33,324 nt of DNA from Roseobacter sinensis (GTDB taxonomy: Bacteria > Pseudomonadota > Alphaproteobacteria > Rhodobacterales > Rhodobacteraceae). Both the position numbers and the translations under genes were made by a program. Numbering within the stretch: position 1 is the stretch's first letter; each line of letters starts with the position of its first letter. The stretch lies in NCBI RefSeq assembly GCF_025755255.1, contig NZ_JALIEB010000027.1:1-33324 (forward strand), in the 5' to 3' direction. Positions 1,734 to 28,938 of the stretch are shown in pieces. Under the pieces are notes generated by a model. It ran no database searches. It was not told where the DNA came from and was given only the letters and a program-made list of their open reading frames with translations.

Positions 1734-4331
1734 TCACCCCTGCGTGGTTTCCATCGCGGTGTTGTTATCCTCGCGGCATTCCACCACGCGGTCCGATATG
1801 TCTGCGGTGACACTGACCGTGCAATCAGGGTCAAAGCAGTTTCCGCCGGGCGGCGTGCTGATCTGCAGCGTTGTCGTGGCACCCGGCAGCAGGTTCGGAA
1901 CACCACTGCCAACCGTTACGGACTGTGTCGGGTCCAGCACCGCACGCGACTGGAACGGACCGCTGGCCGCATTGCCAACGTTCGCCAACTCATAGTCAAG
2001 CTCGGTCACGCAGGAGCCCGCCCCTTGCGGGCAGGACACACGCGGCTGGCCGATATCGGTGACCGTGAGATCAGCGCACATCTCGATTGGCGTTTGGGCT
2101 TCGATCACGTACTCCCGGGCCGGAACCACTTCAAGCGTGGTCGAGAGAGCTGGCGCGCTAGGACATCCCCCTTGCGGACGATCGTCGCAGCCGCTTTTAC
2201 AACCGTGGTGATCGCCGGGATGCCGGCAAGCGGGGGCTGCGATCGTGTCACGGCTGCTGTAAACCCCCGTCACATCGAGGCGCGCGGCCGTTTCCAGCGC
2301 GATGTAACCTTCGATGTAGGGCGTCGGGAACCCGTTCGGAAACAGCCGGCGCTCCACATCGGCGCAATCGGTCTTCAGCGCATGTCCGGGCTCGAGCGTA
2401 TCGACTGCGATCGACAAGACGTCGCCCTGAACCTGCTCCTCCGGCGGGTAGCTGAGTGACAGGAACTTCTTGATCCGTGCCGGCGCGTCCGAGACGTTCA
2501 GGATATTGACGGTTGTCGCATAGTGACCACGCACGAGCCGCCCGTCGCTGGGTGCCTCGGGTTGATCGCCGCAGACCAGCTTCGCGGCATAGCGATAGCG
2601 GGTGGGTTCAGCCACGTCGCAAACGCCGTTTCCATTGTCGTCAGAACACGCACCGGTATCGATGTCGATCGCATCGTCGACACCATTGCCGTTGAGATCG
2701 GGGATCTGACCAGTGAACTGGATGAAGATCCGGTTTGACAAGGGGCCGGTGACCATGGTGCCGGTGTTGCGATCGTAGTATGTTGCGTCCGGATCGGTGA
2801 TGGTTGCTTCAACGTAGACCCGGGCGGAGGGGAACAGCCCCAAAACCGGTCCTTCCTCGCAGTAAGGCAGCTCCAGAAACAGATGGTCCGGAACCGGGGG
2901 CAGATCTGGCAGCATGCCGCAGTCGGGGTCCGCTTCACGGAAGTAGTCAACTGCCCGCTCTTCAGCGAGATTGGCCACAGCGAGGTCCGCAGCGCCCGCC
3001 ACGGCCACATCCCCACCATCACGATCCTGCCAGGGCATCAGCGGGCGGCCATCGACGCCGAGCATGACGCCTGTCGATGTCATCTCGTTGATCGACAGGG
3101 TGCGCGGCAGATGCCGGATGCGGACGTCAGAGACGAGCATGGGGCCATTTTCCGGATCCGGCACCGATAGGGTCAGATGATAGTCGCCGGTTTCGGGATT
3201 GAAGGAGCCATCCGGTGTGTAGCCGACCACCCGGGGATGCAGCTGCATCGGCGCATCATCGGCAAGCAGGGTGACATCGTTCACGATATAGTTCTCGGTC
3301 AGCCCAACGCCGACGTGAAACTCCTCACCGGCCGGGATTTCTCCGCTGTCGCCGTTGTTCCAGCCTTGGGCGCCGGTGAAGGTGATCGTGTAGCGGTCAT
3401 AGGGATCGCCTTGGAAGGTGGTCGTGCCAGCTGCTGTGATCTCGGCATCGCTCCAGGGGCTAAGCCCGCCATCGTAGACCGAGCCGATCTCGGGCGCGTC
3501 GGCATCGGGATCGATCAAAACCGTAATCCGCAGACCGTCCGCAGCCGAACTGTTCGGATTGATGAAATCCCAGTTGCTCAGGGTCTGCTCGTAAAGGCCC
3601 AGCGCTCCGGCCAGCGCTTCATAGCTTGTGTCGCTGAAATGCCGGTCTTCGATCCGGTCCGCCGCGGGCGGCGTGTCCATGATATGGTTCTCTCTGGCAT
3701 CCTCGCCCGGGCGCGGGTCGGCCGCGTCATGGCCGGGGTTTCCCAGGATCGTGCTATGCCCGGGTTCGTGCGATGTCGTCCCGGCGATGGCGTTGGCCCA
3801 CCGGTCGAGTGTGCCGTCACCGGGGGTCAGAAGGCCGTCAAAGCTCCCACCGTCGACCGCGCCGTTTGCGAAGGTTCCTGCGAAGACGCGGGCCATTCTG
3901 CTGTTGCAGCACACCCCGAAGAAGCCGTTGCCGGGATCGCTGCCGATGCCGACGACGTAGTAGTTGTCATCCGTTGGCACCGGGTCGGTGGTGCCGTTGG
4001 CGCTTGTCGTCTGCACAACCCGCACGTCGAACTCGCAGTAGTCGGTCCGGACCCTCTCTGTGATGGCGTTGCGATAGTCCGCCGTAGACCCCAGGGCCGG
4101 GTCGAGATCATTCGCGTCGAACGGTGCCAGCGGCGAGGTGACCTCGCCGAACATCGGCGACGGAAATGCTGAATCCGAAACGGTCGGATAGTAGAGATAG
4201 AGAACCAGCCCGTCGCCTGACCGGTCGGCCTGACAATCGACCGAGGCGGCGCGTATGTCGGTGCCAGTGATTGTGAAGACGAGGGCGAGAAATAGGCCCG
4301 TTGCAATCTGTAATGCGCGAAACAATGTCAT
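1734..4331 (-). CDS. Secreted metzincin-like metalloprotease candidate with CARDB-type tail
   Basis: This 865-residue protein starts with a signal peptide (residues 1 to about 29, hydrophobic core then AA-S). Residues 188-201 contain HEPGH, then nine residues ending in a third histidine (H188, E189, H192, H201), followed by NHIMD with M218. This resembles a metzincin zinc site plus Met-turn, but the third histidine is three residues later than in the classical HExxHxxGxxH. Residues 544-576 hold aspartate/asparagine-rich DLNGNGVDD and DDNGNGVCD loops of calcium-binding (thrombospondin-3 or dockerin-like) type. The C-terminal roughly 110 residues look like a CARDB adhesion fold ending in VECREDNN. 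The protein is probably exported or cell-surface; the substrate is unknown. AAAGGA lies 7 bp before the ATG. It shares a transcript with the gene upstream (26 bp gap). The protease call is inference from motifs. Confidence 0.6.
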   Translation of the reverse strand: MTLFRALQIATGLFLALVFTITGTDIRAASVDCQADRSGDGLVLYLYYPTVSDSAFPSPMFGEVTSPLAPFDANDLDPALGSTADYRNAITERVRTDYCEFDVRVVQTTSANGTTDPVPTDDNYYVVGIGSDPGNGFFGVCCNSRMARVFAGTFANGAVDGGSFDGLLTPGDGTLDRWANAIAGTTSHEPGHSTILGNPGHDAADPRPGEDARENHIMDTPPAADRIEDRHFSDTSYEALAGALGLYEQTLSNWDFINPNSSAADGLRITVLIDPDADAPEIGSVYDGGLSPWSDAEITAAGTTTFQGDPYDRYTITFTGAQGWNNGDSGEIPAGEEFHVGVGLTENYIVNDVTLLADDAPMQLHPRVVGYTPDGSFNPETGDYHLTLSVPDPENGPMLVSDVRIRHLPRTLSINEMTSTGVMLGVDGRPLMPWQDRDGGDVAVAGAADLAVANLAEERAVDYFREADPDCGMLPDLPPVPDHLFLELPYCEEGPVLGLFPSARVYVEATITDPDATYYDRNTGTMVTGPLSNRIFIQFTGQIPDLNGNGVDDAIDIDTGACSDDNGNGVCDVAEPTRYRYAAKLVCGDQPEAPSDGRLVRGHYATTVNILNVSDAPARIKKFLSLSYPPEEQVQGDVLSIAVDTLEPGHALKTDCADVERRLFPNGFPTPYIEGYIALETAARLDVTGVYSSRDTIAAPACRHPGDHHGCKSGCDDRPQGGCPSAPALSTTLEVVPAREYVIEAQTPIEMCADLTVTDIGQPRVSCPQGAGSCVTELDYELANVGNAASGPFQSRAVLDPTQSVTVGSGVPNLLPGATTTLQISTPPGGNCFDPDCTVSVTADISDRVVECREDNNTAMETTQG

Positions 4332-4357
4332 TGGTCGATCCTTTCAATCGATTATGG

Positions 4358-4987
4358 TCAATCTCCCCTTCGAATACGTCGTTCTGCGATCCCCGCCAGG
4401 TGAGCCGCCAACCAGGAGCTTTGCTGGTAGCTGGCGAGTGCCTGATTGGAACACCGCCTGGAAAAGTCCTCTTGCTCCGTCAGGTCGTAGCAGCCAAAAA
4501 ACCCCTCCAGCGCTTGGTCAAAAACCTCCGCTTCGATGCGGTATGCTTTGCCCTCTCCGCCGGGCACATCCACGCGGATGAGTGTTGCAGGTGGGCGCGA
4601 CATCGCGCGCACATAGACATGCTCTGCATCGCGGAGGATTTCACCTTCAGCGGCCCGACCCAGAGGTCGGACCAGCATGTCCTCCGCCCGGTTGCCGAAT
4701 AGTGTGATCGGCTGTCCGACCGCAAAGTCACCTGACCGCGTCTCGTGCGGATAGACGTTCTCACGCAGGATCTGCAGCGTCTCCGAGGGATTGGCGCCCC
4801 GAAAACTCTGCGTCAGCTTCAGGTCGTACTGCGACTCTTCCAGGCGTTGCACGTCGCCGATCACCACCACATCGCTGGCGATCAGCAACTGGAAAAGTGT
4901 GAGCGGACCATAGTCCGAGGAGGCCGGCAAGCCGGATAAGAAAAGCATCCAGATTGCAGCGACTGTTGTGGGTCGCAATCGGTTCAT
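4358..4987 (-). CDS. Secreted protein of unknown function
   Basis: I do not recognise this protein of about 209 residues. It begins with a signal peptide (about residues 1-24, ending PASS), after which residues form a mixed alpha/beta domain with no repeats or membrane segments. Two cysteines near the C terminus (FFGCYDL and SRRCSNQ) could form a disulphide in the periplasm. The ATG at 4987 is chosen because GAGG lies 5 bp upstream; a GTG at 4993 would add two residues but overlap that site. It is 26 bp upstream of the metalloprotease candidate on the same strand, so the two are probably co-transcribed. A role linked to that protein, such as an inhibitor or partner, is only a guess. Confidence 0.65.
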   Translation of the reverse strand: MNRLRPTTVAAIWMLFLSGLPASSDYGPLTLFQLLIASDVVVIGDVQRLEESQYDLKLTQSFRGANPSETLQILRENVYPHETRSGDFAVGQPITLFGNRAEDMLVRPLGRAAEGEILRDAEHVYVRAMSRPPATLIRVDVPGGEGKAYRIEAEVFDQALEGFFGCYDLTEQEDFSRRCSNQALASYQQSSWLAAHLAGIAERRIRRGD

Positions 4988-5457
4988 GGACACCTCGCGA
5001 CGCTATGTATCTATGCCAAGAATATACCATAAAAGTGGCGGTACGTCCTTCATTGTTCAATTTTTTGCACGCGATCGGCCAATCTTGGCTCAGACCCACT
5101 GCCGCTGGATGTGCGACGATCGGCAGGGCCTGTCAGTCAAACGTGATGCAGGGCGCACCGCCGATGATCTGAACCGAGCGAAGTTAACTGTAGGATCTTG
5201 AACGCAACTGCAGCTTGCCAGTACGGTTGCGGCGCGGCCATAGCCGAGCTTGGCCTGCCCCGGTCTCAAGACCGTTTTCCCGCCAGCTTTCCCTAGACAC
5301 CGCAGGTTGATGCAAGAGGCTCGAAGTAACGCACCAAGACGCTATTTGCATCTCTCTTGTTGTCCTGCCCTACAGGGCTGAACGATCTTTTTGCTTGTTG
5401 CAACTATGGTGTATTAGGTTCCGTCACGATCCGACGGAGTGTGACAAAGCAGAGACT
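4988..5457. other. Divergent intergenic region
   Basis: No convincing gene is present in these 470 bp. The region separates two divergent genes and must hold both promoters. On the minus strand a TATATT about 40 bp before the 4987 start could be a -10 element. A short stem CGGTCT/AGACCG at 5261-5274 followed by TTTT looks terminator-like but its loop is too small to be sure. Short ORFs here have no recognisable product. Confidence 0.5.
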
Positions 5458-6483
5458 ATGGACCCAATGAACCGAAGACGTTTTACATTTTTGGGGCTGG
5501 CTTCGGTTGCAACTGCTCTGGCACCGGCGTCCTTCGCCAAAATAGACGATCAGACCGGATGGCAAATCGCCGAGCTGACTGATGATGGATTGCGATTGGC
5601 GCATGGCGGCATGGCATCTGCGGGCACGCCGGTCGATGATCAAACGCTGTTTCAGGTGGCGTCATGCTCCAAAACGGTCGCGGCCCTCGCGGTATTTACG
5701 CTGATCCGAGATGGACACGTCGAGCTCGACCGGCCGGTCAACGACTACCTTCAGCGATGGCGACTGCCCGGTCCGGGCGGTGATGGAGCGACGATTTCGG
5801 AACTGCTCTCGCATACGGCCGGCACGAATATTCACGGTTTCCAAGGGTACCGTGCCGGCGAAGATATCCCTGGCCTCATCGATATCCTGAACGGAAGACC
5901 GCCTGCGAACTCACCGCCCATTCGCACAGAGAGGCGGTTGTTCAAACGCTACGACTATAGCGGCGGCGGAACCACCGTGCTGCAGTGCCTTATCGAGGAT
6001 GTCGCTGGTGAGAGTTTTGCACAATATGCATCCGCAAACATATTCGGCCCGATCGGCGCGACCGCGGCGACCTTCGAGCTCAAGCCGCGCAGCGCGTATG
6101 CGCTTGGGGTCTTGGAAAACGGGCAGCCGGTTGCGGGAGATTTCGTACGCCATCCCGAAAGCGCGGCTGCAGGCCTTTGGGCGACTGCGGCGGACTTGGT
6201 AAAGATCATGCAGTCGATCCTTGTCTCCCTCAACGGTGATGATGCTGCCCTGTTACCTCCCGACTTGGCCCGACAGATGATCACACCAGTCACGCGAGGC
6301 GTCGCTCATGGTGTCTTTGTAGATGCGGAGGGGGTTATCTCGCACGACGGTCGGAATGAAGGCTTTGAAGCGGCAATGGCTGCTGATCCCGTGTCGGGCA
6401 GAGTTCGTGCAGGCGTGACGAACCGCAATGGCCAAATGCAACGTGTCTTGGATGCCGATCATGCGATTCATGGGCCCGAGTGA
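5458..6483 (+). CDS. Beta-lactamase-family serine hydrolase, Tat-type signal
   Basis: This 341-residue protein belongs to the class C beta-lactamase / penicillin-binding-protein-like serine hydrolases. S69-C-S-K72 matches the catalytic SxxK. LLSHTAG near 116-122 is family-typical. Y167-S-G takes the YxN position, with glycine for asparagine, and H296-D-G fits the third HxG/KTG motif. Such enzymes may be esterases, peptidases or amidases; true beta-lactamase activity is not implied. The N terminus NRRRFTFLGLA then ALAPASFA fits a twin-arginine signal, so export in folded form is likely. The ATG at 5458 is preferred because it places this signal at the N terminus; an upstream in-frame start would bury it. 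It stands alone, divergent from the secreted pair. Confidence 0.8.
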   Translation: MDPMNRRRFTFLGLASVATALAPASFAKIDDQTGWQIAELTDDGLRLAHGGMASAGTPVDDQTLFQVASCSKTVAALAVFTLIRDGHVELDRPVNDYLQRWRLPGPGGDGATISELLSHTAGTNIHGFQGYRAGEDIPGLIDILNGRPPANSPPIRTERRLFKRYDYSGGGTTVLQCLIEDVAGESFAQYASANIFGPIGATAATFELKPRSAYALGVLENGQPVAGDFVRHPESAAAGLWATAADLVKIMQSILVSLNGDDAALLPPDLARQMITPVTRGVAHGVFVDAEGVISHDGRNEGFEAAMAADPVSGRVRAGVTNRNGQMQRVLDADHAIHGPE

Positions 6484-6732
6484 AGCCCTCGCAAGGAACG
6501 CCCAGGCCATAATCGCAGCACAGCTCCGCGGCGGTGCGGCGACGCAACAGATGTCCGGAACCAAACTGAGCGGGATCATCTTCAGCGGGCAAGCTTCGGG
6601 CCCTCTCATGTGACCCGAAAGTCCAATTGGAAAGGCCGCCGACTGTAACCGCGAGGTCATGCTGAAATGTGGTCCATCGGGTGGGATGTGGTGCGCTGCG
6701 ATTGGTACACCACACGAGGATGACCCTGCGCA

Positions 6733-7542
6733 CTACGGCGAGGTGGCCGAGCCGGCTTTCGTCTGGGCTGTGAGCACGGAGGACCACGCTGCGAATGCTT
6801 CGGCCACGATGATCTTGTCCGATCCGATGACAAAACATGACACACCGTAGCTGCGCCACTCCGCAATCAACTCTGCGCATTCGGTCTTGGACGGAGCGAA
6901 GACGGGCATGATTGCCGGCAGGCCCGCGTCTTTCGCCGCCTGAAGCATGTCTTTCGCGGCCTCGATCACGGCGCGATCCCGCCAGTTGCCGTTCAGACCC
7001 ATCGAGACGGCCAGATCGAAAGGTCCGACCATGAGTGCGGACAGTCCCGGGGTCGTGCAGATCGCGCCGATGTTGCGGTGGCCCTCGGCCGTTTCGACCA
7101 GGGCGATGGCGCCTGTGCGCGTCTCCTCTGCAATGACATAGTCTTCCCAGTTGCGGATGAAGTGCCCGCCGGATCGGCAGCAGGGGCACGCACCGCGCAG
7201 ACCATGCGGGCCAAAGCGTGTGGCGGCCACCGCTTGCCCCGCCTGTTCGGCAGTTTCGACATTGGGCACAACCACATGCCGGATACCAGCATCCAGCGCT
7301 TTCATGATTTCGACAGGATCATTGCGTGCAACGCGCAGCGCCACCGCGATATCATTTGCATCTGCGGCGCGCGCCAGGTTCTCGGCCGTTTCGATCCCGA
7401 ACGGTCCGTGCTGGCAATCGATGATCGTGAACTCGAAGCCGTTCAAACCGATCAGGTCGACCATCTCAGGTGCGGCGATCTGGGTCCATGTGCCGATATG
7501 TGTGGTCTCGGAGACCAGAAGGGATTTCAGGTCGCGCGTCAT
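6733..7542 (-). CDS. HpcH/HpaI-family class II aldolase
   Basis: This 269-residue enzyme belongs to the HpaI family, metal-dependent aldolases that cleave 4-hydroxy-2-oxoacids to pyruvate plus an aldehyde. H45 and R70 fall at the same numbers as the catalytic His and pyruvate-binding Arg of E. coli HpaI. E150 and D176 (in GPFDLA) match its metal ligands E149 and D175 within one residue. The ATG at 7542 overlaps the stop of the Rid-family gene (ATGA), so the two are translationally coupled; an in-frame ATG ten codons earlier lies inside that gene. It is the last gene of the seven-gene operon. A segment rich in Cys (ACPCCRSGGH) around 118-127 is unusual. The physiological substrate is unknown. 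Confidence 0.85.
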   Translation of the reverse strand: MTRDLKSLLVSETTHIGTWTQIAAPEMVDLIGLNGFEFTIIDCQHGPFGIETAENLARAADANDIAVALRVARNDPVEIMKALDAGIRHVVVPNVETAEQAGQAVAATRFGPHGLRGACPCCRSGGHFIRNWEDYVIAEETRTGAIALVETAEGHRNIGAICTTPGLSALMVGPFDLAVSMGLNGNWRDRAVIEAAKDMLQAAKDAGLPAIMPVFAPSKTECAELIAEWRSYGVSCFVIGSDKIIVAEAFAAWSSVLTAQTKAGSATSP

Positions 7543-7943
7543 GCCGGATCGAGGCCCAATATGGCCTTGCATTTGATCTCGACCAGAATACCGGGCATCG
7601 AAAACCCCTTCACGGCGAAGCCGGTCCAGGTCGGGTACTGATCGGTGAAGTAACGATCCTTGACCTTTAGGAAGGTCTTCAGATCCGCCATGCTGTCGGT
7701 GAACCAGGTTTCCAGCTCGACCACGTCGCTGAAAGTGGCGCCCGCTGCGTTCAGCACTTTCTGTACGTTCTCGAACGCTTGTATGTATTGCGCTTCGACC
7801 CCTTCAACGACGTTCAAATTCTCATCCCGCCCGACCTGCCCCGAGAGATAAAGCGTATCTCCAACCTGGATCGCAGGGGCGTAATGGTACGTGTCATAGA
7901 TGTTCTCCATCCCCTCGGGGATAATCACTTTACGGTTGGGCAT
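7539..7943 (-). CDS. Rid-family (YjgF/UK114) protein lacking the RidA arginine
   Basis: This 134-residue protein has the full Rid fold signature: LYLSGQVGRD near 31-40 and a C-terminal VEIKCKAI strand. RidA proteins hydrolyse reactive enamine/imine intermediates using an arginine (Arg105 in E. coli, in the ARSCVEV motif). Here the aligned segment is TWTGFAV, with tryptophan in place of that arginine. It therefore probably belongs to a Rid subgroup without classical imine deaminase activity, often found within specific catabolic operons. The ATG is preceded by AGGAG. It sits 5 bp after the E1 gene and overlaps the aldolase gene by 4 nt, so it should act on an intermediate of the same pathway. 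Confidence 0.85.
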   Translation of the reverse strand: MPNRKVIIPEGMENIYDTYHYAPAIQVGDTLYLSGQVGRDENLNVVEGVEAQYIQAFENVQKVLNAAGATFSDVVELETWFTDSMADLKTFLKVKDRYFTDQYPTWTGFAVKGFSMPGILVEIKCKAILGLDPA

Positions 7944-7948
7944 GGCGC

Positions 7949-9976
7949 TCAGCTCCTGTAGCAGACGGATTTCACGGCTTCGATGATGCGGGTGGCGTCG
8001 GGCATGTAGGCGCGCTCCAGCCGGTCGTTGTAAGGCACGGGCATTTCTGGCGCACCGACGCGGGCGATGGGGGCATCCAGCCAGTCAAAGGCCTTATCCT
8101 GGATGGTGGCTGCAATCTCTCCACCAAAGCCGCCGAAAAGCGGCGCTTCGTGCACAATCACAGCACGGTTTGTCTTGCGGACACTGCTACAGATCAGGTC
8201 CGCGTCGAGCGGCTTGATGGTTCGGGGGTCAATGACTTCGACACTGATTCCTTCGCGCTCAAGCGTTTCGGCGGCCTGCACGGCGCGGTCGACCATGGCG
8301 AGTGTGGCGATCACGGTGCAATCGCGGCCCGGACGCACGACACGGCCCTTGCCGGGTGCGATGTGATAGCGCGCCTCCGGAACGGGCTGCGCCGCGCCGA
8401 GGTACAGAAGCTTGTGTTCGAGAAACACGACGGGGCCGTCCTGCGCGATTGCGGTGGCCATGAGGCCCTTGGCATCATAGGCGCTGCAAGGGGCATAGAC
8501 CTGCAACCCGGGGACATTGGCAAAGAACATCTCAAGCGATTGGCAATGCTGTGCGGCAAGCCGGATGCCGGCGCCTTGCGGGCCGCGAAAGACGATGGGC
8601 ACCCGGGCCTTGCCACCCAACATGAAGCGTGCCTTGGCCGCCTGATTGACGATGGCATCCATCATCAGGGTGACGAAGTCCCACAGCTGCGCCTCGACCA
8701 CAACGCGCTTGCCGCTCATCGCGGCGCCGACGCCGCAGGTGGAAATCGCGCCTTCGGAGATGGGCGTGTCCCGCACGCGGGCTGCGCCAAAGCGCTCGCA
8801 AAGCCCAAGCGTGAGGCCAAAGATACCGCCGGTTTCGCCGACATCTTCGCCCAAAATTATGACGTCATCATCGGCCTCCATCTCCAGGGCGAACGCCTCG
8901 GTGATCGCCTGCGCATAGGTCAGCGTGCGGGCGCCGGGGCCTGGTTCGGAATAGCTGAGGCCCACGGGCGCGAGAACATGCGACAAGGCCAGATCCATGT
9001 CCGGTTCTGCCTGCGCACGCGCCCACTCAATGGCCTCCTCAATCTCGGCTTCGACCTGGGCCACAAGGGTGTCGTAGTCGTCACCATCCAAGTCCTTCGC
9101 GGCAACCAGATGATCCCGGAGGCGGGCGATTGGGTCGCGGCGCCTCCAATCCTCCTCCTCCATATCAGTACGATAGGATGGCAGGTTGGCGCGCATGGAA
9201 TGATCATCCCAGCGGTAGGTCAGGGCCTCGATCAGCGTCGGCCCCTCCCCTGCTCTGGCCCGCAGGGCCGCACGTTCAACCGCTTCGAATACGGCGGCCA
9301 CGTCATTCCCGTCGATACGTTCGTTGAGCACGCCATAGGCGTCACCGCGTGCGGCGATGGACGGGCCCGCCGTCACGGCCTCGGTCGCCGTGGTCAGGCC
9401 GTACTGGTTGTTCTCGCAGAAAAAGATCAAAGGCAGGGACCAGATGGCAGCAAGGTTCATCGCCTCATGGAAGATGCCTTCGTTCGCGGCCCCATCGCCA
9501 AAGAATGTGATACCGATGTTGCCGGTGCCATTCAGCTGCTCGGCCAACGCAGCGCCCGTCCCCAGCCCCATGCCCGCGCCGACGATGCCGTTGGCACCCA
9601 GGATCCTGCGCTCGAAGTCCGCGATATGCATCGATCCGCCCAACCCCGCACAATAGCCGGGCGCCCGGCCCATGAGCTCGGCAAACATACGCGCGACGTC
9701 AGACCCTTTGGCGATCGTGTGGCCATGACCGCGGTGATGGGTCAGCAGGAAATCATCCGGGCCCAATGCGGCGCAGGCCCCTGCGGCAATCGCCTCCTGC
9801 CCGACGCTGGAATGTGCGGTGCCCTTGATCACGCCTTTCAAAAACAGCTCTTTTGCGCGAGTCTCGAAGCGGCGGATGCGCAGCATCATGATCAGCGCGG
9901 CGCGCAATTCGTCCGGGCCCATGCGATTGCCGGGGCTGGTCCGCGCTACAGTGTCGAGGATGTGGACGTGAGCCAT
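7949..9976 (-). CDS. Fused alpha+beta thiamine-diphosphate E1 (2-oxoacid/acetoin dehydrogenase type)
   Basis: This 675-residue protein is a head-to-tail fusion of the two E1 subunits that are usually separate. Residues 1 to about 340 are the alpha part, with the ThDP motif G160-D-G and NN at 189-190, and HRGHGH at 81-86. A linker leads to the beta part from about 351, with GEDVGETGG near 376-384 and a transketolase C-terminal domain (VEVIDPRTIKPLD). Family enzymes decarboxylate 2-oxoacids or cleave acetoin and pass the acyl group to a lipoyl E2. No E2, E3 or lipoyl domain is present in this window. The ATG at 9976 is 5 bp after the DctM stop; a longer reading frame upstream would run into that gene. 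Confidence 0.85.
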   Translation of the reverse strand: MAHVHILDTVARTSPGNRMGPDELRAALIMMLRIRRFETRAKELFLKGVIKGTAHSSVGQEAIAAGACAALGPDDFLLTHHRGHGHTIAKGSDVARMFAELMGRAPGYCAGLGGSMHIADFERRILGANGIVGAGMGLGTGAALAEQLNGTGNIGITFFGDGAANEGIFHEAMNLAAIWSLPLIFFCENNQYGLTTATEAVTAGPSIAARGDAYGVLNERIDGNDVAAVFEAVERAALRARAGEGPTLIEALTYRWDDHSMRANLPSYRTDMEEEDWRRRDPIARLRDHLVAAKDLDGDDYDTLVAQVEAEIEEAIEWARAQAEPDMDLALSHVLAPVGLSYSEPGPGARTLTYAQAITEAFALEMEADDDVIILGEDVGETGGIFGLTLGLCERFGAARVRDTPISEGAISTCGVGAAMSGKRVVVEAQLWDFVTLMMDAIVNQAAKARFMLGGKARVPIVFRGPQGAGIRLAAQHCQSLEMFFANVPGLQVYAPCSAYDAKGLMATAIAQDGPVVFLEHKLLYLGAAQPVPEARYHIAPGKGRVVRPGRDCTVIATLAMVDRAVQAAETLEREGISVEVIDPRTIKPLDADLICSSVRKTNRAVIVHEAPLFGGFGGEIAATIQDKAFDWLDAPIARVGAPEMPVPYNDRLERAYMPDATRIIEAVKSVCYRS

Positions 9977-9981
9977 ATCAA

Positions 9982-11298
9982 TCACCCGTAAACAAGCCGC
10001 GGCAGCCAAAGCGACAGGTCCGGCCACATGACGACAAAAAACAGCGCAAGGATTTGCAAGCCAATAAATGGCCATTGCGCCGCAAAGATTTCGGTCAGCT
10101 CCAGGCTGTCACCCGCCGCACCCTTCAGATAGAAACAGGCCGGTCCGAAGGGTGGCGTCAGATAGGCAATCTGCATCGACAAGTTGAAGACGATCCCGAA
10201 CCAGATCGGGTCATATCCCAGTTGCGTCAGAACCGGGAGGAAGATGGGCATGGTCAGAAAGAGGATGCCGATCCAATCGATGAAGAAGCCCAGGAGGATG
10301 AAGACACCGATCATTACGGTGAGGATGATGGCCGGTTCAGGGCTGATACCCGCCAACATGTTCGACGCGAAGGTGATCCCGCCCATCAGATTGTAGACGC
10401 CAATCAGCGCGTTGGTGCCGAAGACCAGCCAAAACACCATGCCGCATGTTCTCAGCGCCTGGATCAGTACATCTTTCAGCATGGCAAAGCTGAATGCGTT
10501 GCGCACCCAGGCCGCGACCGCCGCGCCGAATGCACCCAAGGCCGCACTTTCGGTAATGGAGGCGAAACCCGCGTAGATCGACACCAGAACGCCACCCGCA
10601 ACAGCCATGGGCAGCGCGACACCTTTGAACACCGCGAGCTTCTCACCCAGCGGCATATCGCGGTCTTCAGGCGGCAATGGTGGCCCCAGATCGGGGTTGA
10701 GGCCACAGCGGATCAGGATGTAGGCCACATAGAACGTGGCCAGCATCAGGCCCGGGACGAGGGTTGCGAGAAACAAGTGAGAGATCGAAACCTCGGCTGT
10801 CAGGCCGTAGAAGATCAGAATGATCGATGGCGGGATCATGGTGCCCAACGACCCGCCGGCCGTAATTGTGCCAATGGCCAGCTTGCGGTCGTAATTCAGC
10901 TTGAGCATCTGCGGCAGAGCGATGAGGCCCAGCAGCACGATCTCTCCCCCGATGATGCCGGTGGTCGCGCCCAAGAGAACCGCGACGCCTGTGGTCACGA
11001 CCCCGATGCCCCCGCGCACGGATCCGGCCCAGACGTGGAAGGCGCGGTAGAGATCTCGGGCAACCCCGGATTTCTCCATGATCGAGGCCATGAGAACGAA
11101 CATCGGCACCGCGATCAGGGAGAACGAACTGACAAACTCGGCCGTTCGGGTTGAAATCAGAAAGAACCCGGCGACGCCAAAGTTGGCATAAGCCAGGACA
11201 ACTGCGATGACGCCAGAGACGAAGGCCACGGGGACGCCCAGTATCAGCAACACCGACATCGCCGCGACGATCAGCACCGAGATCGTTGCGATGTCCAT
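9982..11298 (-). CDS. TRAP transporter large permease, DctM family
   Basis: This 438-residue membrane protein is the ion-coupled translocation subunit of a TRAP carboxylate transporter. About 12 hydrophobic segments are visible, and GGSLGTMIPPSIILIFYG near residue 150 is a hallmark of the DctM family. Its start codon shares one base with the stop of the DctQ gene (TGATG), and the E1 gene follows 5 bp downstream. The three TRAP genes lie in the order P-Q-M. The substrate cannot be told from the permease alone; the linked BKACE, E1 and aldolase genes suggest an organic acid, possibly an oxo or amino acid. Confidence 0.92.
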   Translation of the reverse strand: MDIATISVLIVAAMSVLLILGVPVAFVSGVIAVVLAYANFGVAGFFLISTRTAEFVSSFSLIAVPMFVLMASIMEKSGVARDLYRAFHVWAGSVRGGIGVVTTGVAVLLGATTGIIGGEIVLLGLIALPQMLKLNYDRKLAIGTITAGGSLGTMIPPSIILIFYGLTAEVSISHLFLATLVPGLMLATFYVAYILIRCGLNPDLGPPLPPEDRDMPLGEKLAVFKGVALPMAVAGGVLVSIYAGFASITESAALGAFGAAVAAWVRNAFSFAMLKDVLIQALRTCGMVFWLVFGTNALIGVYNLMGGITFASNMLAGISPEPAIILTVMIGVFILLGFFIDWIGILFLTMPIFLPVLTQLGYDPIWFGIVFNLSMQIAYLTPPFGPACFYLKGAAGDSLELTEIFAAQWPFIGLQILALFFVVMWPDLSLWLPRLVYG

Positions 11299-11819
11299 CA
11301 GCGGGGCGCCCGGTCAGGTTCGGACGAAGACCGACCTTGCCGAAGCCAGGCGACCAGCTGTTGCAGGACGACCGCAAGAAAAAGCACGGCGCCCAGAAAC
11401 AAGGCGAATTTGACAAAGGCGGGCAGCGGCGTGTTCCACGAACTGCCCGAACGTTCCGGAAACCAGCTGCCATCCGGCATGAAACGAAAAAGCGATCGTT
11501 CGGCGATCTGCCAGCCCGAGAAGGTCAGCGCAGCCAGATAGACGGCGCCGCAGATCAACGCCAGCCCGTCAGCCATCCACTTCAGCCCGGCAGGCATCCG
11601 GTCCGTCAGGGCGGTGACCCGCATATGCGATCCATCGATCATGCAATAGGCGCCCCCCAGCAGGAAGGCGACCGCGCCCAGGAGCCCCGCAATCTCATGC
11701 GCCCAGAAGGTCGGCGCGCCGAACCCGTAGCGCGCCACGACCTCGTAGACCATCATGAGGACGATCACTGCGAAGCCATATGCGGCCGTTTCAGCGAATT
11801 TTCCGATCAGCCAAGTCAT
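11298..11819 (-). CDS. TRAP transporter small permease, DctQ family
   Basis: This protein of about 173 residues is the small four-helix membrane subunit that pairs with DctM. Hydrophobic helices begin near residues 12, 46, 86 and 134. VYEVVARYGFGAPTFWAHE is typical for the family. The ATG at 11819 is preferred because AGGGG lies 5 bp upstream and the protein then begins directly before the first helix. An in-frame ATG at 11846 would add nine residues but has no visible ribosome binding site. It lies between the DctP and DctM genes, overlapping the latter by one base. Confidence 0.85.
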   Translation of the reverse strand: MTWLIGKFAETAAYGFAVIVLMMVYEVVARYGFGAPTFWAHEIAGLLGAVAFLLGGAYCMIDGSHMRVTALTDRMPAGLKWMADGLALICGAVYLAALTFSGWQIAERSLFRFMPDGSWFPERSGSSWNTPLPAFVKFALFLGAVLFLAVVLQQLVAWLRQGRSSSEPDRAPR

Positions 11820-11888
11820 ATCGGCCCCTGGCGGAGAGGTTTGCATCGGAGCGAACGGAAGACTGCGCGCCCCGACACCCGGCCGCTC

Positions 11889-12893
11889 CTAGAGAATGCC
11901 CAAGGAACTCATGTAGGCCTTGTGGCTATCCACGATGGCCTGCGCGTCGCCATTTCGGCCGCCCCAATCGTCCCATACCTCAAGCAGCATGTTGCGGAAC
12001 TTCTCGGCATCAGCCTCGCCAAACTCGATGAATTCGACATTCAGCTCCGACTTGGCTTTTTCGATCGCTGCGATCTCCTGCTCGCCCAATGTCGTTTCCA
12101 GCGTAGCGGAGAGGGTCTGGCACGCTGCTTCGAACTTGGCCTTGGCGTCGTCCGACAAGCCGTTCCACTTGGCCATGGAAACCGACATCTCCGTGACGGG
12201 CATCGAGTGGCGGGCGAAAATCGAATAGGGCGCGTTCTGGTACATGCCGAAGGCCATGTTCAGCCCGACATTGGCCAGATCCGAAGCATCCAGCACACCG
12301 GTTTCAAGCGCGCTGATTGCATCGCCGGGCGTCAGGTTCACCAGCGAAGCACCTGCCCGCGTCAGCAGATCCGACGGAAGCCCTCCGGGGGCGCGGATCT
12401 TGATGCCCTGGAAGTCATCCACGCTGCGGATTGGCACGGTCGAGGGGATCTGCTCCTGCGGCCAGTGCACGGTGCAGATCATGTGCATATCGTACTTGGC
12501 GTACAGGGCACGGCCCAACTCGAGCCCGCCGCCTTCGACGAACCATTTGTCGCGCACATCCGTGTTGGGATAGGCCGACAGCGTGTCGCCCAGCACGGCA
12601 AAGGCCGGGTCGACCCCGGCAAAGAACGTCGGACCGGTGTAGTGCCCATCGAGCAGCCCGTTGCGCACCGCTTCGAGGGTTTCGGTCGGGCCGACAACCG
12701 CACCGCTTGGAAAGACCTGAATGTCGACCTCCCCACCTGTGTCGGCCTTCAGCTGTGCCGCCATGTCTTCGAAGGCTTTGGTCGTGGCCGCTGTCGCACC
12801 CAGGAACGTTTGCATCTTGAAGGTCTCGGCTGCGGCTCCGCTGGCCATCAATGCCAGCAGTGCTGCACCCGCGAAAAGCTTGGTCCGTTTCAT
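11889..12893 (-). CDS. TRAP transporter periplasmic binding protein, DctP family
   Basis: This 334-residue protein captures the substrate in the periplasm and delivers it to DctQM. A signal peptide covers residues 1-22 (MKRTK, hydrophobic core, AAA-ETF). The body has DctP features, including GIKIRAPGG, where the conserved arginine normally salt-bridges the substrate carboxylate. The ATG at 12893 has GGAGG six bases upstream (GGAGGAAACCATG); a longer frame to 13040 lies within the neighbouring gene. It follows the BKACE gene by 31 bp and precedes the small permease. The ligand is unknown. Confidence 0.92.
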   Translation of the reverse strand: MKRTKLFAGAALLALMASGAAAETFKMQTFLGATAATTKAFEDMAAQLKADTGGEVDIQVFPSGAVVGPTETLEAVRNGLLDGHYTGPTFFAGVDPAFAVLGDTLSAYPNTDVRDKWFVEGGGLELGRALYAKYDMHMICTVHWPQEQIPSTVPIRSVDDFQGIKIRAPGGLPSDLLTRAGASLVNLTPGDAISALETGVLDASDLANVGLNMAFGMYQNAPYSIFARHSMPVTEMSVSMAKWNGLSDDAKAKFEAACQTLSATLETTLGEQEIAAIEKAKSELNVEFIEFGEADAEKFRNMLLEVWDDWGGRNGDAQAIVDSHKAYMSSLGIL

Positions 12894-12924
12894 GGTTTCC
12901 TCCCTATGGACTTCTATGCTGGCT

Positions 12925-13824
12925 TCAGGCCGCGATCTTGACTTTCGGCATGTCGAGGATGGTGCGCGTTTCCGCGACGGTGGCAGGCTCACGTCCCAGG
13001 GCACGGGCTTGCGCTGCAACTTTCGCGACCACCTCGGCATTCTTCAGGTGCCGGGCGCCGTCTTTGTAGGCGTAGTCACCCAAACCGATCGAGACATGAC
13101 CGCCCTGGCGAATGATCTTCTCGGTCAGTTCGAAGAGGTCGCCCTTGTAGTTCACCACGGTCCAGACGCAGTCGAAACCTTGCGGGAGGAACGCAGTATG
13201 GGCATCCAGACCGGCCGCGGTTCCGGGATGGCCGGCAAAGATGATCTCATCGGTCATGCAGAAACAAATATAGGCGGGATCGGTCAGCACACCCATCTTC
13301 AGGAATTGTTCGATCTGGCGGGTGAAACTGACATTCCAACTGACCAGATATGGCTTCAGGCCGTGATGTTTGATGCGCTCGGCGAAGTGCATCAGTGTGC
13401 CGGTGGAGTTCTTGTAGATCAGCTCGGTCGTGTCGTATCTGCCTTCCTCGGGGTTCCACCAGTCGACGTTCACGCTGCCAGTATCCATCGGCGCAAAGTC
13501 AGGCGCGGTGTCAGGCGATTTCATCATCTCTTCGATCGCCGCGAACCGGCCTTTCGCATCGCTTTCGTTGGCGACATAGCCCAAAGTCGGGTGGATAAGG
13601 ATGTCTGACTGCGCACGGATGCCCGCGTTTGTTTCAAGGTAAAACTCTGCGGCATGCTCCGGCGCTCCATCCGCCGTGCGTCCGTGGTAATGGACCACCG
13701 ACGCCCCTTCGTCATAACAGGCCTTTGCATCCGCAATGATCTCCGACGGCAAGAACGGAACATGAGGATTGCCGCGTCGTGTCGCCAGCTCGTTCACACG
13801 AGCTTCGATGATGATCTTGTCCAA
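12925..13824 (-). CDS. BKACE-family (DUF849) beta-keto acid cleavage enzyme, TTG start
   Basis: This protein of about 299 residues belongs to the family of 3-keto-5-aminohexanoate cleavage enzymes. They condense a beta-keto acid with acetyl-CoA to give acetoacetate and a new CoA thioester, using a zinc ion. H45-Y-H47 followed by GR fits the HxH zinc site (His46 and His48 in Kce). E8 or E12 near the first strand may be the other conserved residues. The TTG at 13824 is chosen because GGAGG lies 5 bp upstream and the protein then starts at DKIIIEARVNE, as the family does. An ATG at 13887 gives 21 extra residues, lacks a ribosome binding site and spans a 14-bp palindrome. It is the first gene of the operon. 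Substrates vary widely in this family, so the substrate is open. Confidence 0.85.
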   Translation of the reverse strand: MDKIIIEARVNELATRRGNPHVPFLPSEIIADAKACYDEGASVVHYHGRTADGAPEHAAEFYLETNAGIRAQSDILIHPTLGYVANESDAKGRFAAIEEMMKSPDTAPDFAPMDTGSVNVDWWNPEEGRYDTTELIYKNSTGTLMHFAERIKHHGLKPYLVSWNVSFTRQIEQFLKMGVLTDPAYICFCMTDEIIFAGHPGTAAGLDAHTAFLPQGFDCVWTVVNYKGDLFELTEKIIRQGGHVSIGLGDYAYKDGARHLKNAEVVAKVAAQARALGREPATVAETRTILDMPKVKIAA

Positions 13825-13941
13825 TGTGTCCTCCCTCTCCGGTGCACCGGATTGAGAAAGATATACACCATTCAGCGCAAAAGTCATATAGTAAGTTATA
13901 TTTTTGTTGAATAACGTTCCATTTTATATATCTTTAGGCAT
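13825..13941. promoter_or_regulatory. Divergent promoter region with a 14-bp perfect palindrome
   Basis: These 117 bp separate the catabolic operon from its presumed regulator and are much more AT-rich than the rest. TCCGGTGCACCGGA at 13838-13851 is a perfect palindrome lying just before the BKACE ribosome binding site. On the plus strand TTGTTG (13904-13909) and TATATC (13927-13932), 17 bp apart, could be the regulator's promoter and would give an almost leaderless mRNA. These elements are proposals from pattern only. Confidence 0.5.
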
Positions 13942-14799
13942 ATGAATGAAGATCAAGTCCCTACAAACCGCACGCATGATGTGGCGGATCTTCTGGCCGA
14001 TCATTTCCCCGGTCACACGATGCAGCGCATGCGCACACCGGACGGAAAGTACCGCTACATCTACGTCAGTTCCGGCATTCAGAATTCGTTTGGCCTGAAC
14101 CCTGACGAGCTGATGAAGGCCGATGCGGTAGACCACGGTTGGATCCACCCAGACGAGCGGGCGCAATTTGTCGAAGCACTGGAACTGTCCGCGCACGACC
14201 TGACCCCACTGGACATCGAAGTGCGTGTCGAAGCGCCTGACGGTGCGTATCGCTGGGTCCGCTCCCTTGGACAGCCCCGGCGCGAAGACGACGGCACGGT
14301 GATCTGGGACGGCGTGGCGTTGGACATCACGGACCGGCGCGAGGCTTTGGATGCCCTGGAGCGGGCCTTATCCGAGGCACGCCGGAGCGAGGTCGCTGAA
14401 GGCCGGCTGAACTACATTGCCGCTCAAGATCTTGCCGCCCCGCTCAGCGCCTTGCGCAGCGCGATCACAGCCTTGACGATCGTCGATACGGAAAACAGGG
14501 CAGATGTCGAGGCCTGCATCTCAGACGTGTCCGACCGCTTCGGTACGTTCGAAAAGGCCCTTCTCGCCACACGGGGTTTGGTTCTGTCGGGCAAGTCACA
14601 GCCCACAAGCGGCGCTTCCGAAATCGACCCGAAGCTGACCAAACGACAACGGGAAATCCTGGTCATGATTCGAAAGGGGGCGTCCAACCTCGAGATCGCA
14701 GACCAATTGGGTATCTCCGAAGGCACGGTCAAACTGCATGTCAGTGCAATCCTGAAACGGCTCGGCGTGAGGAACCGAACGGAAGCCGCGCGATTGTAG
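13942..14799 (+). CDS. PAS domain LuxR-type transcriptional regulator
   Basis: This 285-residue protein has an N-terminal PAS fold (about residues 25-130, with GAYRWVRSLGQP and WDGVALDITDRREA typical of PAS plus PAC). A helical, possibly coiled-coil, linker covers about 133-215. A LuxR/GerE helix-turn-helix lies at about 228-285 (LTKRQREIL, SNLEIADQLGISEGTVKLHV). No receiver domain, membrane segment or histidine kinase domain is seen, so it is probably a cytoplasmic one-component sensor of a small molecule. It is divergent from the BKACE-TRAP operon across 117 bp and is the likely activator of that operon; this pairing is inferred from position. Shine-Dalgarno match is weak (AGG only). Confidence 0.85.
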   Translation: MNEDQVPTNRTHDVADLLADHFPGHTMQRMRTPDGKYRYIYVSSGIQNSFGLNPDELMKADAVDHGWIHPDERAQFVEALELSAHDLTPLDIEVRVEAPDGAYRWVRSLGQPRREDDGTVIWDGVALDITDRREALDALERALSEARRSEVAEGRLNYIAAQDLAAPLSALRSAITALTIVDTENRADVEACISDVSDRFGTFEKALLATRGLVLSGKSQPTSGASEIDPKLTKRQREILVMIRKGASNLEIADQLGISEGTVKLHVSAILKRLGVRNRTEAARL

Positions 14800-14880: not shown

Positions 14881-15906
14881 TCAAAGAAGCTCGCAGGGAA
14901 CCTGCAGGAGACTGCCCCCCTGGGCGCCAGCATCGAGCTGGCGGAAGGCTTCGGCGATCATCACATCAGAGCGTTGGCGCACCATGCGCAAGGGCACCCG
15001 CAAGAGCGTGGCCAGCGGATCGTGATCGAAACAACCGAATTGAGTGCGCTTTGTTTCAGCCTCCGGAACCTGCGCGAGATAGCGAACCACCCCTTCGAAA
15101 CAATCGATGGAATTGACAAACAGCCCACCCGGCAAGCGCCCCAAGTCGCGGTGCAGACGGCCAAGTGCGTCGGTCGCCCGCACGGGATCATAGCCGCAGG
15201 CGATGATCTGATCCTCTGAGTAAAGGAACCCCGAGGCCTGCATCTGCGCGCGAAATCCGCGGACCCTCTCCACTGTGGCAGAGGAGGTCTCTTCTCCGCC
15301 CAAAAGGTAAAGCCAGCTTCCGGGGTCATCGGGATCCGAGGGCGCCATGTCTTCCAGAAGCGTCTCGGTCAGCGCCGCGGCAGCCGCCCGGTTGTCGGCA
15401 ACCACCGAGGGCGCTTGCGCGCAGGGCTGATCGACAAACACATGGGGCAGATGCGCATCGCGGCAGAGGCGCGCAAGCCCGTCGGGGTCTGTGGCGCCTG
15501 CGATGAACACGAAGTCAACGGCGTAGGAAAGCAAATCGCGCAGAGCCTGAAGTTGCACCTCCACATCACGGCCTGCGTGAACGATTGCGGGACAATGTCC
15601 ACGCGCCTGGCTTTCCAGTGCAAATGTCTCGCTGAGCTCGGCAAAGAACCGGTTTTCGTGATTGGGCAGGATCAAGCCCGCGAGGCCGGACTTCGCCTTG
15701 CGCAGACCACGCGCCTGCAAATTCGCCGTATACCCTTCCTCGCGCGCGATCCGCAGAATGCGCTCGACCGTCTCCTCCTTCAGGCGCCGCTTCTTCCAGG
15801 TGCCGTTGAGCGCCGAAGAGACCGCCGAGGGCGAGGACCGCGCCTTTTGCGCGATGTTGTAGATCGTTGTTTTGCGGCGCGCCTTGAGGGGCATGTCGTG
15901 GCTCAT
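14881..15906 (-). CDS. LacI-family transcriptional repressor
   Basis: This 341-residue protein has an N-terminal LacI helix-turn-helix (about residues 13-60, TIYNIAQKARSSPSAVSSALNG), the hinge region, then a periplasmic-binding-like sugar sensor from about 75 (GLAGLILPNHENRFFAELSETF). It probably represses the divergent sugar transporter operon starting at 16061 and releases it on binding a sugar or polyol-derived ligand. A LacI-style palindrome is found 48 bp before its start codon. The downstream neighbour is the PAS-LuxR gene in convergent orientation, with 81 bp between and only a weak hairpin. A second in-frame ATG at codon 5 is possible. Confidence 0.9.
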   Translation of the reverse strand: MSHDMPLKARRKTTIYNIAQKARSSPSAVSSALNGTWKKRRLKEETVERILRIAREEGYTANLQARGLRKAKSGLAGLILPNHENRFFAELSETFALESQARGHCPAIVHAGRDVEVQLQALRDLLSYAVDFVFIAGATDPDGLARLCRDAHLPHVFVDQPCAQAPSVVADNRAAAAALTETLLEDMAPSDPDDPGSWLYLLGGEETSSATVERVRGFRAQMQASGFLYSEDQIIACGYDPVRATDALGRLHRDLGRLPGGLFVNSIDCFEGVVRYLAQVPEAETKRTQFGCFDHDPLATLLRVPLRMVRQRSDVMIAEAFRQLDAGAQGGSLLQVPCELL

Positions 15907-15953
15907 AAACTTTCGCGCATACGCGCTTGACGTAAATTATCTTTCGTGACTAC

Positions 15954-15977
15954 CGTTGCTCAATCGGTTGAGCAACG
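15954..15977. promoter_or_regulatory. Candidate LacI-family operator
   Basis: Arms CGTTGCTCAA and TTGAGCAACG form a perfect inverted repeat around a TCGG centre. The core CAATC|GGTTG has the central CpG characteristic of LacI-family sites. It lies between the repressor gene and the transporter operon. A TTGACG at 15927-15932 could be the -35 box of the plus-strand promoter; an operator over the -10/start region would then block transcription. Confidence 0.75.
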
Positions 15978-16060
15978 CTTTTTGTGCCCAGTCGAGCACC
16001 GCCCCTGCTCCGCACGGGCAAGGATCGCGGCCGGGGAGCGCCGCGCAAAGGGAGGAAAAC

Positions 16061-17038
16061 ATGAAGACATTCTTGAATGCGACCGCTGCGGTTGCACTGT
16101 TGGCCAGTGGCACGGCGGCATCCGCCGAAACCACGATGGGTATTGTCGTCAAGATCGGTGGGATTCCCTGGTTCAATGCCATGGAAGACGGCATCAAGGC
16201 GCGCGCGGCCGAGCTGGGTGTCAGCGCCGAGATGATCGGGCCGACCTCGGCCGATCCCGCGCTGCAGGTCCGCGCCATTGAGGATCTGATCGCCAAGGGT
16301 GTGGATGTCATCGGCGTGGTGCCCAACGATGAAGCCGCGTTGGAGCCGGTGCTGAAAAAGGCGATGGATGCGGGCATCAAGGTCATCGCGCACGAAGGTC
16401 CGGGGCTGAACAACGTCGACTGGAACTTCGAGCTGGCCTCGGCGGACGGCTTTGGCGAAGCGCACGCGCAGCTTCTCTGCGACAAGGCCGATCCGGGCAA
16501 ATACGCTGTCTACGTGGGCTCGCTCACAGTGCCGCTGCACAACGCCTGGGCCGATGCGGCGATCGAATGGATGGGCGATAACTGCGACAAGCTCGAATTG
16601 GTGGGTGAACGCTACGGCGTGGCAGAAAGCGTGGACGACAGCCGCTCGACCGCGCTGGACCTCATCGGTGCCAATCCCGATCTTAAGGGCTTTCTGGCCT
16701 TCGGCTCGCAAGGGCCCATTGGCGCGGGCCGCGCGGTTGAGGAACGCCGTTTGGGCGGTGAGGTGCATGTGCTTGGTCCCTTCTCACCCGGCCAGGGCCG
16801 ACAGCTTCTGAAGGATGACATCATCTCCGGCGGTTACATGTGGAACCCGGCGGAAGCGGGCCGTGTGTTCGTCACACTTGGCAACATGCTTGTCGAAGGT
16901 GAAGAGATCGCAGAGGGCACCGTAATCGAAGGTCTGGGCGCGGTCAGCCCGGACGCCGAGACCCGCAACATCATCACCGACAACCTGTTGGAGATCAACA
17001 AGTCGACGGTGGATGAACTTGCGGAAAAAGGCCTCTGA
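16061..17038 (+). CDS. Sugar ABC transporter periplasmic binding protein (CUT2 type)
   Basis: This 325-residue protein is a class I periplasmic sugar-binding protein of the RbsB/LsrB group. The signal peptide covers residues 1 to about 22 (ending ASA-E). The mature part shows GIVVKIGGIPWFNAMEDGI at the start of the first lobe and FGSQGPIGAGRAVEER in the second, both typical. The ATG is preceded by GGAGGAAAAC. It is the first gene of the LacI-controlled operon and is followed by a strong hairpin, then the ATPase. The ligand is not known; linkage to a ketose 3-epimerase suggests a ketose, pentose or sugar alcohol. Rhamnose or autoinducer-2-like ligands are alternatives because related proteins bind them. 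Confidence 0.88.
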   Translation: MKTFLNATAAVALLASGTAASAETTMGIVVKIGGIPWFNAMEDGIKARAAELGVSAEMIGPTSADPALQVRAIEDLIAKGVDVIGVVPNDEAALEPVLKKAMDAGIKVIAHEGPGLNNVDWNFELASADGFGEAHAQLLCDKADPGKYAVYVGSLTVPLHNAWADAAIEWMGDNCDKLELVGERYGVAESVDDSRSTALDLIGANPDLKGFLAFGSQGPIGAGRAVEERRLGGEVHVLGPFSPGQGRQLLKDDIISGGYMWNPAEAGRVFVTLGNMLVEGEEIAEGTVIEGLGAVSPDAETRNIITDNLLEINKSTVDELAEKGL

Positions 17039-17046
17039 GCGAGGCT

Positions 17047-17076
17047 AGACCGGAGCGCGGCCCCGTGCTCCGGTCT
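17047..17076 (+). promoter_or_regulatory. Intercistronic hairpin after the binding-protein gene
   Basis: AGACCGGAGC (17047-17056) and GCTCCGGTCT (17067-17076) form a perfect 10-bp stem with a 10-nt loop, placed 8 bp after the stop of the binding-protein gene and 14 bp before the ATPase start. Such hairpins can stabilise the upstream message or partly terminate, giving more binding protein than membrane components. Only a TTT follows, so full termination is unlikely. Confidence 0.65.
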
Positions 17077-17090
17077 TTGAGACCATCTCG

Positions 17091-20558: not shown

Positions 20559-20560
20559 GT

Positions 20561-21409: not shown

Positions 21410-21416
21410 GCGGGCG

Positions 21417-23761: not shown

Positions 23762-23772
23762 CTCTGCCTCCC

Positions 23773-24540: not shown

Positions 24541-24543
24541 GTG

Positions 24544-25113: not shown

Positions 25114-25116
25114 TGC

Positions 25117-26160: not shown

Positions 26161-26175
26161 ACTCTTTCTCCTCCC

Positions 26176-27156: not shown

Positions 27157-27172
27157 GGCCTGCCCTAACGCC

Positions 27173-27991: not shown

Positions 27992-27994
27992 GGC

Positions 27995-28861: not shown

Positions 28862-28892
28862 GGAGGCCTCCCCTGCCCCGCGGGGTCTGGCG

Positions 28893-28917: not shown

Positions 28918-28938
28918 TCACTGTCCCAGGTCAGGCGC

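Follow-up and report, generated by a model that had tools for sequence, protein, structure and literature searches.

Which substrate, and which reactions, unite a seven-gene operon of Roseobacter sinensis that combines a tripartite ATP-independent periplasmic (TRAP) importer with four enzymes? The operon runs on the minus strand of contig NZ_JALIEB010000027.1, from position 13824 to position 6733 of the 33,324-nucleotide stretch analysed here (the window). It encodes, in this order, a TIM-barrel enzyme of the beta-keto acid cleavage enzyme (BKACE) fold that resembles cis-epoxysuccinate hydrolase (CESH), the TRAP subunits DctP, DctQ and DctM, a fused thiamine diphosphate (ThDP) E1 enzyme, a Rid protein and an HpaI-type aldolase. 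The original prediction had described a compact minus-strand operon that could import and break down an organic acid, and all genes, their order and their strand were found as claimed. Also supported is its link between an importer and enzymes that probably act on the carbon-carbon bonds of carboxylates, whereas the BKACE and RidA-type chemistry that it assigned is not. We propose that the operon and its divergent regulator form a cassette that is very probably a dedicated carboxylate-catabolic unit; the specific division of labour that we suggest for its enzymes is tentative and may well prove wrong. The cassette is sporadically distributed and probably self-contained, and it joins variants of known families in a new way; no description of this gene set was found among the matches listed in the open-licence PMC literature.

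Layout and conservation of the cassette

The tight junctions claimed for most borders (1 to 5 nt) were confirmed for four of the six, since these are spaced by 5 nt or less or overlap; in gene order, the junctions are 31 nt, 42 nt, a 1-nt overlap, 5 nt, 5 nt and a 4-nt overlap. The listed open reading frame (ORF) of the barrel gene opens farther upstream than the TTG at 13824 that we take as its start. This TTG is codon 22 of that ORF and is preceded by GGGAGGA. Of the 29 sequences aligned (the window and 28 loci), 25 have ATG, GTG or TTG at this position, and the codons of the remaining four (GCC, GGA, AAC and ACT) may stem from extrapolated alignment ends.

A scan with the barrel protein of one genome per species yielded 31 loci. 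The order divergent LuxR, barrel, DctP, DctQ, DctM, E1, Rid and HpaI was kept in 28 of them, bearing out the conservation of gene order in relatives. All eight genes are visible in 24 of these 28 loci, and the other four (L008, L012, L023 and L032) are cut by contig ends. The divergent PAS-LuxR gene is part of the unit, though it lies outside 6733..13824. The three remaining loci (L030, L031 and L034) have more distant barrels (66 to 73% identity) and lack the other cassette genes; TRAP genes other than those of the cassette adjoin the barrel in L034. Clustering of the flanking ORFs revealed no further gene common to at least three loci, an outcome obtained with a crude ORF picker that was biased towards long ORFs and overlooked some true genes; two leftover clusters (7 and 4 loci) consist of minus-strand ORFs overlapping the barrel and DctP gene positions.

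By record title, the carriers are mainly Rhodobacterales, together with Roseibium, Hoeflea, Tepidamorphus, Cohaesibacteraceae, Kiloniellales and Denitrobaculum, and we take them to be mostly marine. Named carriers include Tateyamaria omphalii KCTC 12333 and Roseobacter insulae YSTF-M11. Two loci come from metagenome-assembled genomes with the labels Zixiibacteriota and Anaerolineae, probably through misbinning. The E1 was present at 72% identity or more in 15 of 390 Rhodobacterales genomes, all other matches listed being at 47% or less; a Fuscovulum plasmid outside this draw carries an E1 at 60%. In all 15 genomes of this E1 clade, the barrel gene lies 2.9 to 3.0 kb from the E1 gene on the same strand. 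Some of these genomes are also represented among the 31 loci: by coordinates, G470 corresponds to the genome of L011 and G171 to that of L027. Within the window's own genus, 2 of the 10 Roseobacter genomes listed have the E1, and in a separate draw the barrel gene was found in 4 of 295 genomes of the family, own genome included. This patchy distribution suggests horizontal spread of the cassette.

Table 1. Coordinates of the cassette features in the window.
Feature	Position	Strand	Evidence
CESH-like TIM-barrel enzyme, BKACE/DUF849 fold, TTG start (MDKIIIEARVNE...)	12925..13824	-	Pfam BKACE 209.7 bits; PDB best 5zmu
DctP, TRAP solute-binding protein	11889..12893	-	Pfam DctP; nearest solved 4pe3
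DctQ, TRAP small permease subunit	11298..11846	-	Pfam DctQ
DctM, TRAP large permease subunit	9982..11298	-	Pfam DctM; NCBIfam TIGR00786 above cut-off
Fused E1 alpha-beta ThDP enzyme, 675 aa	7949..9976	-	E1_dh 31-326, Transket_pyr 352-525, Transketolase_C 542-664
Rid protein, YjgH-like, Trp106 at RidA catalytic Arg position	7539..7943	-	Pfam Ribonuc_L-PSP; 1pf5
HpaI-type class II pyruvate aldolase	6733..7542	-	Pfam HpcH_HpaI; HpaI catalytic residues kept
PAS-LuxR regulator, divergent, conserved operon partner	13942..14799	+	PAS_3 and GerE; 28/31 loci
Inverted repeat AAAGATATAT-N24-ATATAACTTA, likely operator	13892..13935		Shuffle test and genome search

The barrel enzyme belongs to BKACE by fold only

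The first gene product exceeds the cut-off of the Pfam BKACE domain (24.8 bits) by far, and shares with Kce and BKACE15 the Pfam family, the TIM-barrel fold, two metal-site histidines (Kce H46 and H48, here H66 and H68) and Kce D231. However, Kce E143, R226 and the metal ligand E230 are replaced by V182, S266 and G270, and V182 is invariant in a 25-row alignment. The residue roles and numbering of Kce are partly presumed here; an offset of 6, which agrees with the residues expected, fixes the numbering. Three barrel paralogues in the same genome keep the GLED motif and a Glu at the E230 position, and the NCBIfam BKACE models score the barrel far under their cut-offs (best 131 of 382 bits). A portion of the BKACE15 study identifies E171 as the base: E171L abolished activity and an Asp retained 5% (PMC11961710). 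E171 presumably corresponds to Kce E143, since the same 28-residue offset relates R254 to R226. On the strength of the three replacements we rejected a working BKACE for the first gene, and the beta-keto acid and acetyl-CoA exchange of the original prediction is not supported.

The closest solved relative is instead CESH: a PDB search gave 295.6 bits for 5zmu and 65.6 bits for Kce, and a profile search agreed. A structure model (mean pLDDT 80), used just to confirm the nearest fold, had 5zmu and 5zmy as top matches. The barrel is 49% identical to CESH[D] (PDB 5zmu; 143 of 292 columns). We surveyed the CESH residues in 121 rows, namely the window and the best 120 of 660 homologues. R11, D115, D251 and the metal-site residues E14, H47 and H49 were each kept in at least 120 of the 121 rows. 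In contrast, the position of E190, which a passage in PMC6429283 names as catalytic along with D115, is Cys in the window and in 109 rows overall, Val in 11 and Ala in 1. The loss of E190 makes a CESH unlikely for the first gene. With the BKACE residues replaced and E190 lost, the barrel clade seems to represent a third kind of active site within the BKACE/CESH fold.

More distant barrel genes were also considered as guides to the substrate. Neither L030, L031 and L034 nor eight loci with relatives at 47 to 51% identity gave a common gene setting, and this route was abandoned. In L134, as in L034, the distant barrel gene adjoins TRAP genes, a point in favour of the pathway proposed below. Relatives at 41 to 42% (L042, L043 and L044) belong to clusters on rhizobial plasmids that also encode OiaX or a RuBisCO-like protein, along with four-carbon acid sugar kinases and aldo-keto reductases. 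These clusters hint at branched hydroxy-oxo acids.

No dedicated E2 found for the fused E1 in its own genome

The E1 resembles those of 2-oxoacid and acetoin dehydrogenase complexes in having E1alpha and E1beta domains, here in one chain, with the ThDP motif GDG...ENN and a beta part like that of pyruvate dehydrogenase (PDH). It differs from these systems in that the operon encodes no E2 and in its alpha loop, where DHSMRANL replaces the GHSMSDP of the PDH in its own genome. That genome has two E2 genes only, one adjoining the PDH E1 and the other presumably the E2 of 2-oxoglutarate dehydrogenase (OGDH). Likewise, only two were found in 9 of 22 further cassette genomes. A tblastn search with the E2s of the own genome found none in the 31 barrel-query loci except in L009, where it stands beside a separate split E1; the Fuscovulum locus (L039), which served as positive control, was detected. 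Thus, no dedicated E2 was found for the E1 in its own genome and in some others.

The altered loop was tried as a mark of lost E2 coupling and ruled out, since the Fuscovulum E1 has the same loop with an E2 next door; relatives lacking an E2 have it as well, and the loop is no proof of E2 independence. A likely precedent for a stand-alone role comes from the E1-like alphaKADH2 enzymes, described in a part of PMC12247030 as carboligases that make acetyl-branched products from pyruvate. We presume that these enzymes act without an E2.

We also examined 12 regions, several of them short, around E1 relatives at 50 to 60% identity, where genes were mostly named by reading their translations. Transporter genes were among the nearest ORFs in seven (L116, L117, L118, L120, L121, L125 and L126) and five showed no near transporter, so that this setting was suggestive but not decisive as to the substrate. 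In L120, one run (4025-8405) holds a fused E1 (57%), a D-serine-dehydratase-like pyridoxal phosphate gene, an Arg-type Rid and an ABC ATPase that we read as one of the branched-chain amino acid type; such a different E1-Rid pairing would suit imine release followed by use of the 2-oxoacid. Elsewhere, two choline-dehydrogenase-like GMC oxidoreductases accompany a fused E1 (55%) in one run (L062:4303-9762), and no E2 match was found in the 18 kb of this locus.

The Rid protein and the aldolase

The nearest solved structure of the Rid protein is YjgH (1pf5). The position of the catalytic RidA Arg105 is Trp106 in all 26 Rid rows, and the Glu (E122) is kept. With the Arg replaced, RidA-type enamine or imine chemistry, as foreseen in the original prediction, is not supported. 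A section of PMC4433059 covers the catalytic role of this Arg and reports that Rid4 and Rid7 have Trp at its position and that Rid7 did not hydrolyse imines; the functions of Rid4 to Rid7 were completely unknown in 2015 according to this source. According to a passage in PMC8113886, just the RidA subfamily had been biochemically characterised by 2021, before the RutC result of that study. The cassette Rid shows the marks of Rid7 (Trp at the Arg site, Glu kept, likeness to YjgH), although it might also be a Rid4, which has the Trp too. It differs from the Rid7/YjgH subfamily in its constant place in an operon that also encodes an importer and an aldolase. Judging from these residues, this Trp-type Rid is unlikely to be an imine deaminase.

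The aldolase shares its catalytic and metal residues with the pyruvate aldolases HpaI and GarL: W19, D42, H45 and R70, which we take to be the catalytic set, and E149 and D175, presumably metal residues, are kept wherever a row has a residue at the position (25 or 26 of 26 rows). It departs from them in that Q147 is Leu and A174 is Phe, and in a conserved CPCCRSGG stretch. E44 is Gln in 20 and Glu in 6 of the 26 rows, and NCBIfam scores lie well under the cut-offs.

The importer proteins DctP and DctQ come in two types

By Pfam, the DctP, DctQ and DctM subunits of a TRAP transporter are all present. The nearest solved relatives of DctP are 4pe3 (165 bits) and the lactate-binding TTHA0766 (143 bits), followed more weakly by the 2-oxoacid binder TakP (2hzk, 56 bits). 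A portion of PMC1839085 reports that TakP Arg177 holds the carboxylate of the ligand. Arg167 of DctP, in an RAPGG motif, is invariant in 32 rows (the short loci L036 to L038 may repeat genomes) and may be its counterpart.

Across the 25 full cassettes (the window and 24 loci), two groups of DctP can be told apart. The window type has 6 members and the other 19, with mean identities of 84% and 79% within and 62% between them. DctQ tracks DctP (distance correlation 0.91). The barrel (83%) and E1 (76%) identities are equal within and between the DctP groups. Probably, then, dctP and dctQ were swapped together and the enzymes were left in place.

The divergent regulator and its putative operator

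An inverted repeat with the consensus halves AAAGTTATAT and ATATAACTTT lies between the LuxR gene and the operon. With up to two mismatches per half, the pair was present in 18 of 29 intergenic regions, whereas 200 dinucleotide shuffles averaged 0.10 and never exceeded 1 of 29, a test that is partly circular since the motif was picked from the same 29 regions. The halves are 24 nt apart in 13 of these 18 regions, 25 in four and 17 in one. At up to one mismatch per half, 8 of 29 regions had the pair and none of the shuffles did. We then searched 23 whole cassette genomes (the own genome and 22 of the 28) at spacing 24 with two mismatches. Exactly one site was found in 11 of them, in each case between LuxR and the barrel gene, and a reversed control pattern gave one match across all 23 genomes. 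This single site per genome, at the cassette, suggests that the PAS-LuxR regulator probably serves the cassette alone.

A proposed pathway and its alternatives

In the pathway that we propose, the PAS-LuxR protein would bind the inverted repeat, as its conservation and uniqueness suggest, and control the operon. TRAP transporters import with a cation gradient, and DctPQM would take up the substrate in this way; judging from the relatives of DctP, this is probably one organic acid, an alpha-hydroxy or alpha-keto carboxylate. The barrel, with a metal probably held by H66, H68 and E33, would open or cleave the acid without acetyl-CoA, and HpaI would split a 4-hydroxy-2-oxoacid into pyruvate and an aldehyde. 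The fused E1 might work without an E2, with a 2-oxoacid or an alpha-hydroxyketone as substrate of a ThDP lyase or ligase reaction, by analogy with the alphaKADH2 carboligases, and the Trp-type Rid would perform a further step, probably not imine deamination. The conserved unit encodes no oxidoreductase, CoA ligase or kinase, and the pathway should therefore end in metabolites that the host already uses. Pyruvate is a plausible product, given the HpaI residues kept, whereas acetyl-CoA is not established as an end product because no E2 is encoded with the E1. More speculative, and rather doubtful, is the full version of this proposal: a CoA- and redox-free pathway with a stand-alone E1 as carbon-carbon lyase or ligase, a barrel of a third catalytic class (Cys210 for Glu) and the first physiological role of a Trp-type Rid, as a pathway enzyme.

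Several observations weigh against a self-contained catabolic cassette with a stand-alone E1 and a dedicated regulator. Three to five E2 genes are present in 13 of the 22 further cassette genomes, and the E1 may share the PDH or OGDH E2 of its host. The closest annotated E1 relative (Fuscovulum, 60%) adjoins an E2 and shares the altered loop, and a lipoyl-like match adjoins the E1 in one of the 12 E1-relative regions (L127, 50%). No repeat pair with up to two mismatches per half was found in 11 of the 29 intergenic regions, nor any match in 12 of the 23 genomes at the fixed spacing of 24 with two mismatches. One of the 15 E1-clade genomes (G479) has a TAG inside its barrel match. In addition, horizontal transfer is read from a patchy distribution, the ligand class of DctP from distant similarity alone, and the substrate and every cassette reaction are predictions from sequence.

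Were the barrel nevertheless a true BKACE, it would exchange with acetyl-CoA, the E1 would use the E2 and E3 of host PDH or OGDH, and acetyl-CoA and pyruvate would result. The Pfam fold score (209.7 bits), the ThDP motif and PDH-like beta part of the E1, the existence of host E2s (more than two in 13 of 22 other cassette genomes) and the pyruvate that HpaI would give are consistent with this scheme, but it is improbable given the replacement of Kce E143, R226 and E230, the need for the base E171 indicated for BKACE15 in the part of PMC11961710 cited above, the GLED motif of the three paralogues and the low NCBIfam score. We consider it just as improbable that the cassette is non-catabolic, importing a precursor and making a branched alpha-hydroxyketone as a signal or protective compound, in which case the E1 would be a carboligase of the alphaKADH2 type and pyruvate its feed. 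The acetyl-branched products in the cited part of PMC12247030, the LuxR-type regulator and the sporadic distribution would suit such a role; however, the conserved unit has no exporter, tailoring or activating enzyme, and a TRAP importer stands at its core. Most unlikely is a cis-epoxysuccinate-type epoxide hydrolase in an operon degrading an epoxy or tartrate-like dicarboxylate: despite the 49% identity to CESH[D], the six kept residues and the 5zmu/5zmy matches, E190 is Cys, Val or Ala in all 121 rows, tartrate breakdown would presumably need no ThDP enzyme, and DctP distantly resembles binders of lactate and 2-oxo-monocarboxylates.

Three of the four cassette enzymes go by names whose implied chemistry is doubtful or wrong (cleavage enzyme, pyruvate dehydrogenase E1, imine deaminase). 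As the enzymes share one compact operon with an importer and a regulator, knowing the DctP ligand could reveal the substrate and thereby make three uncharacterised groups accessible to assays at once, the Trp-type Rid being one of them.

Surroundings of the cassette

Other genes of the window surround the cassette. A beta-lactamase-fold serine hydrolase (5458-6483, Pfam Beta-lactamase) is probably an esterase or peptidase, since the resistance-class models listed score at most 34 of 415 bits. A transposase-like ORF of 461 aa (39-1424, minus strand, from its translation) lies about 5 kb downstream of the cassette. On the other side, 14881-31422 is a separate sugar or polyol cluster with a LacI-family regulator by Pfam. 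From translations only, it also holds a sugar-binding protein, an ABC ATPase, two permeases, a TIM-barrel isomerase, an FGGY-type kinase, short-chain dehydrogenases, a zinc alcohol dehydrogenase, a SorC-type regulator and a second sugar ABC system.

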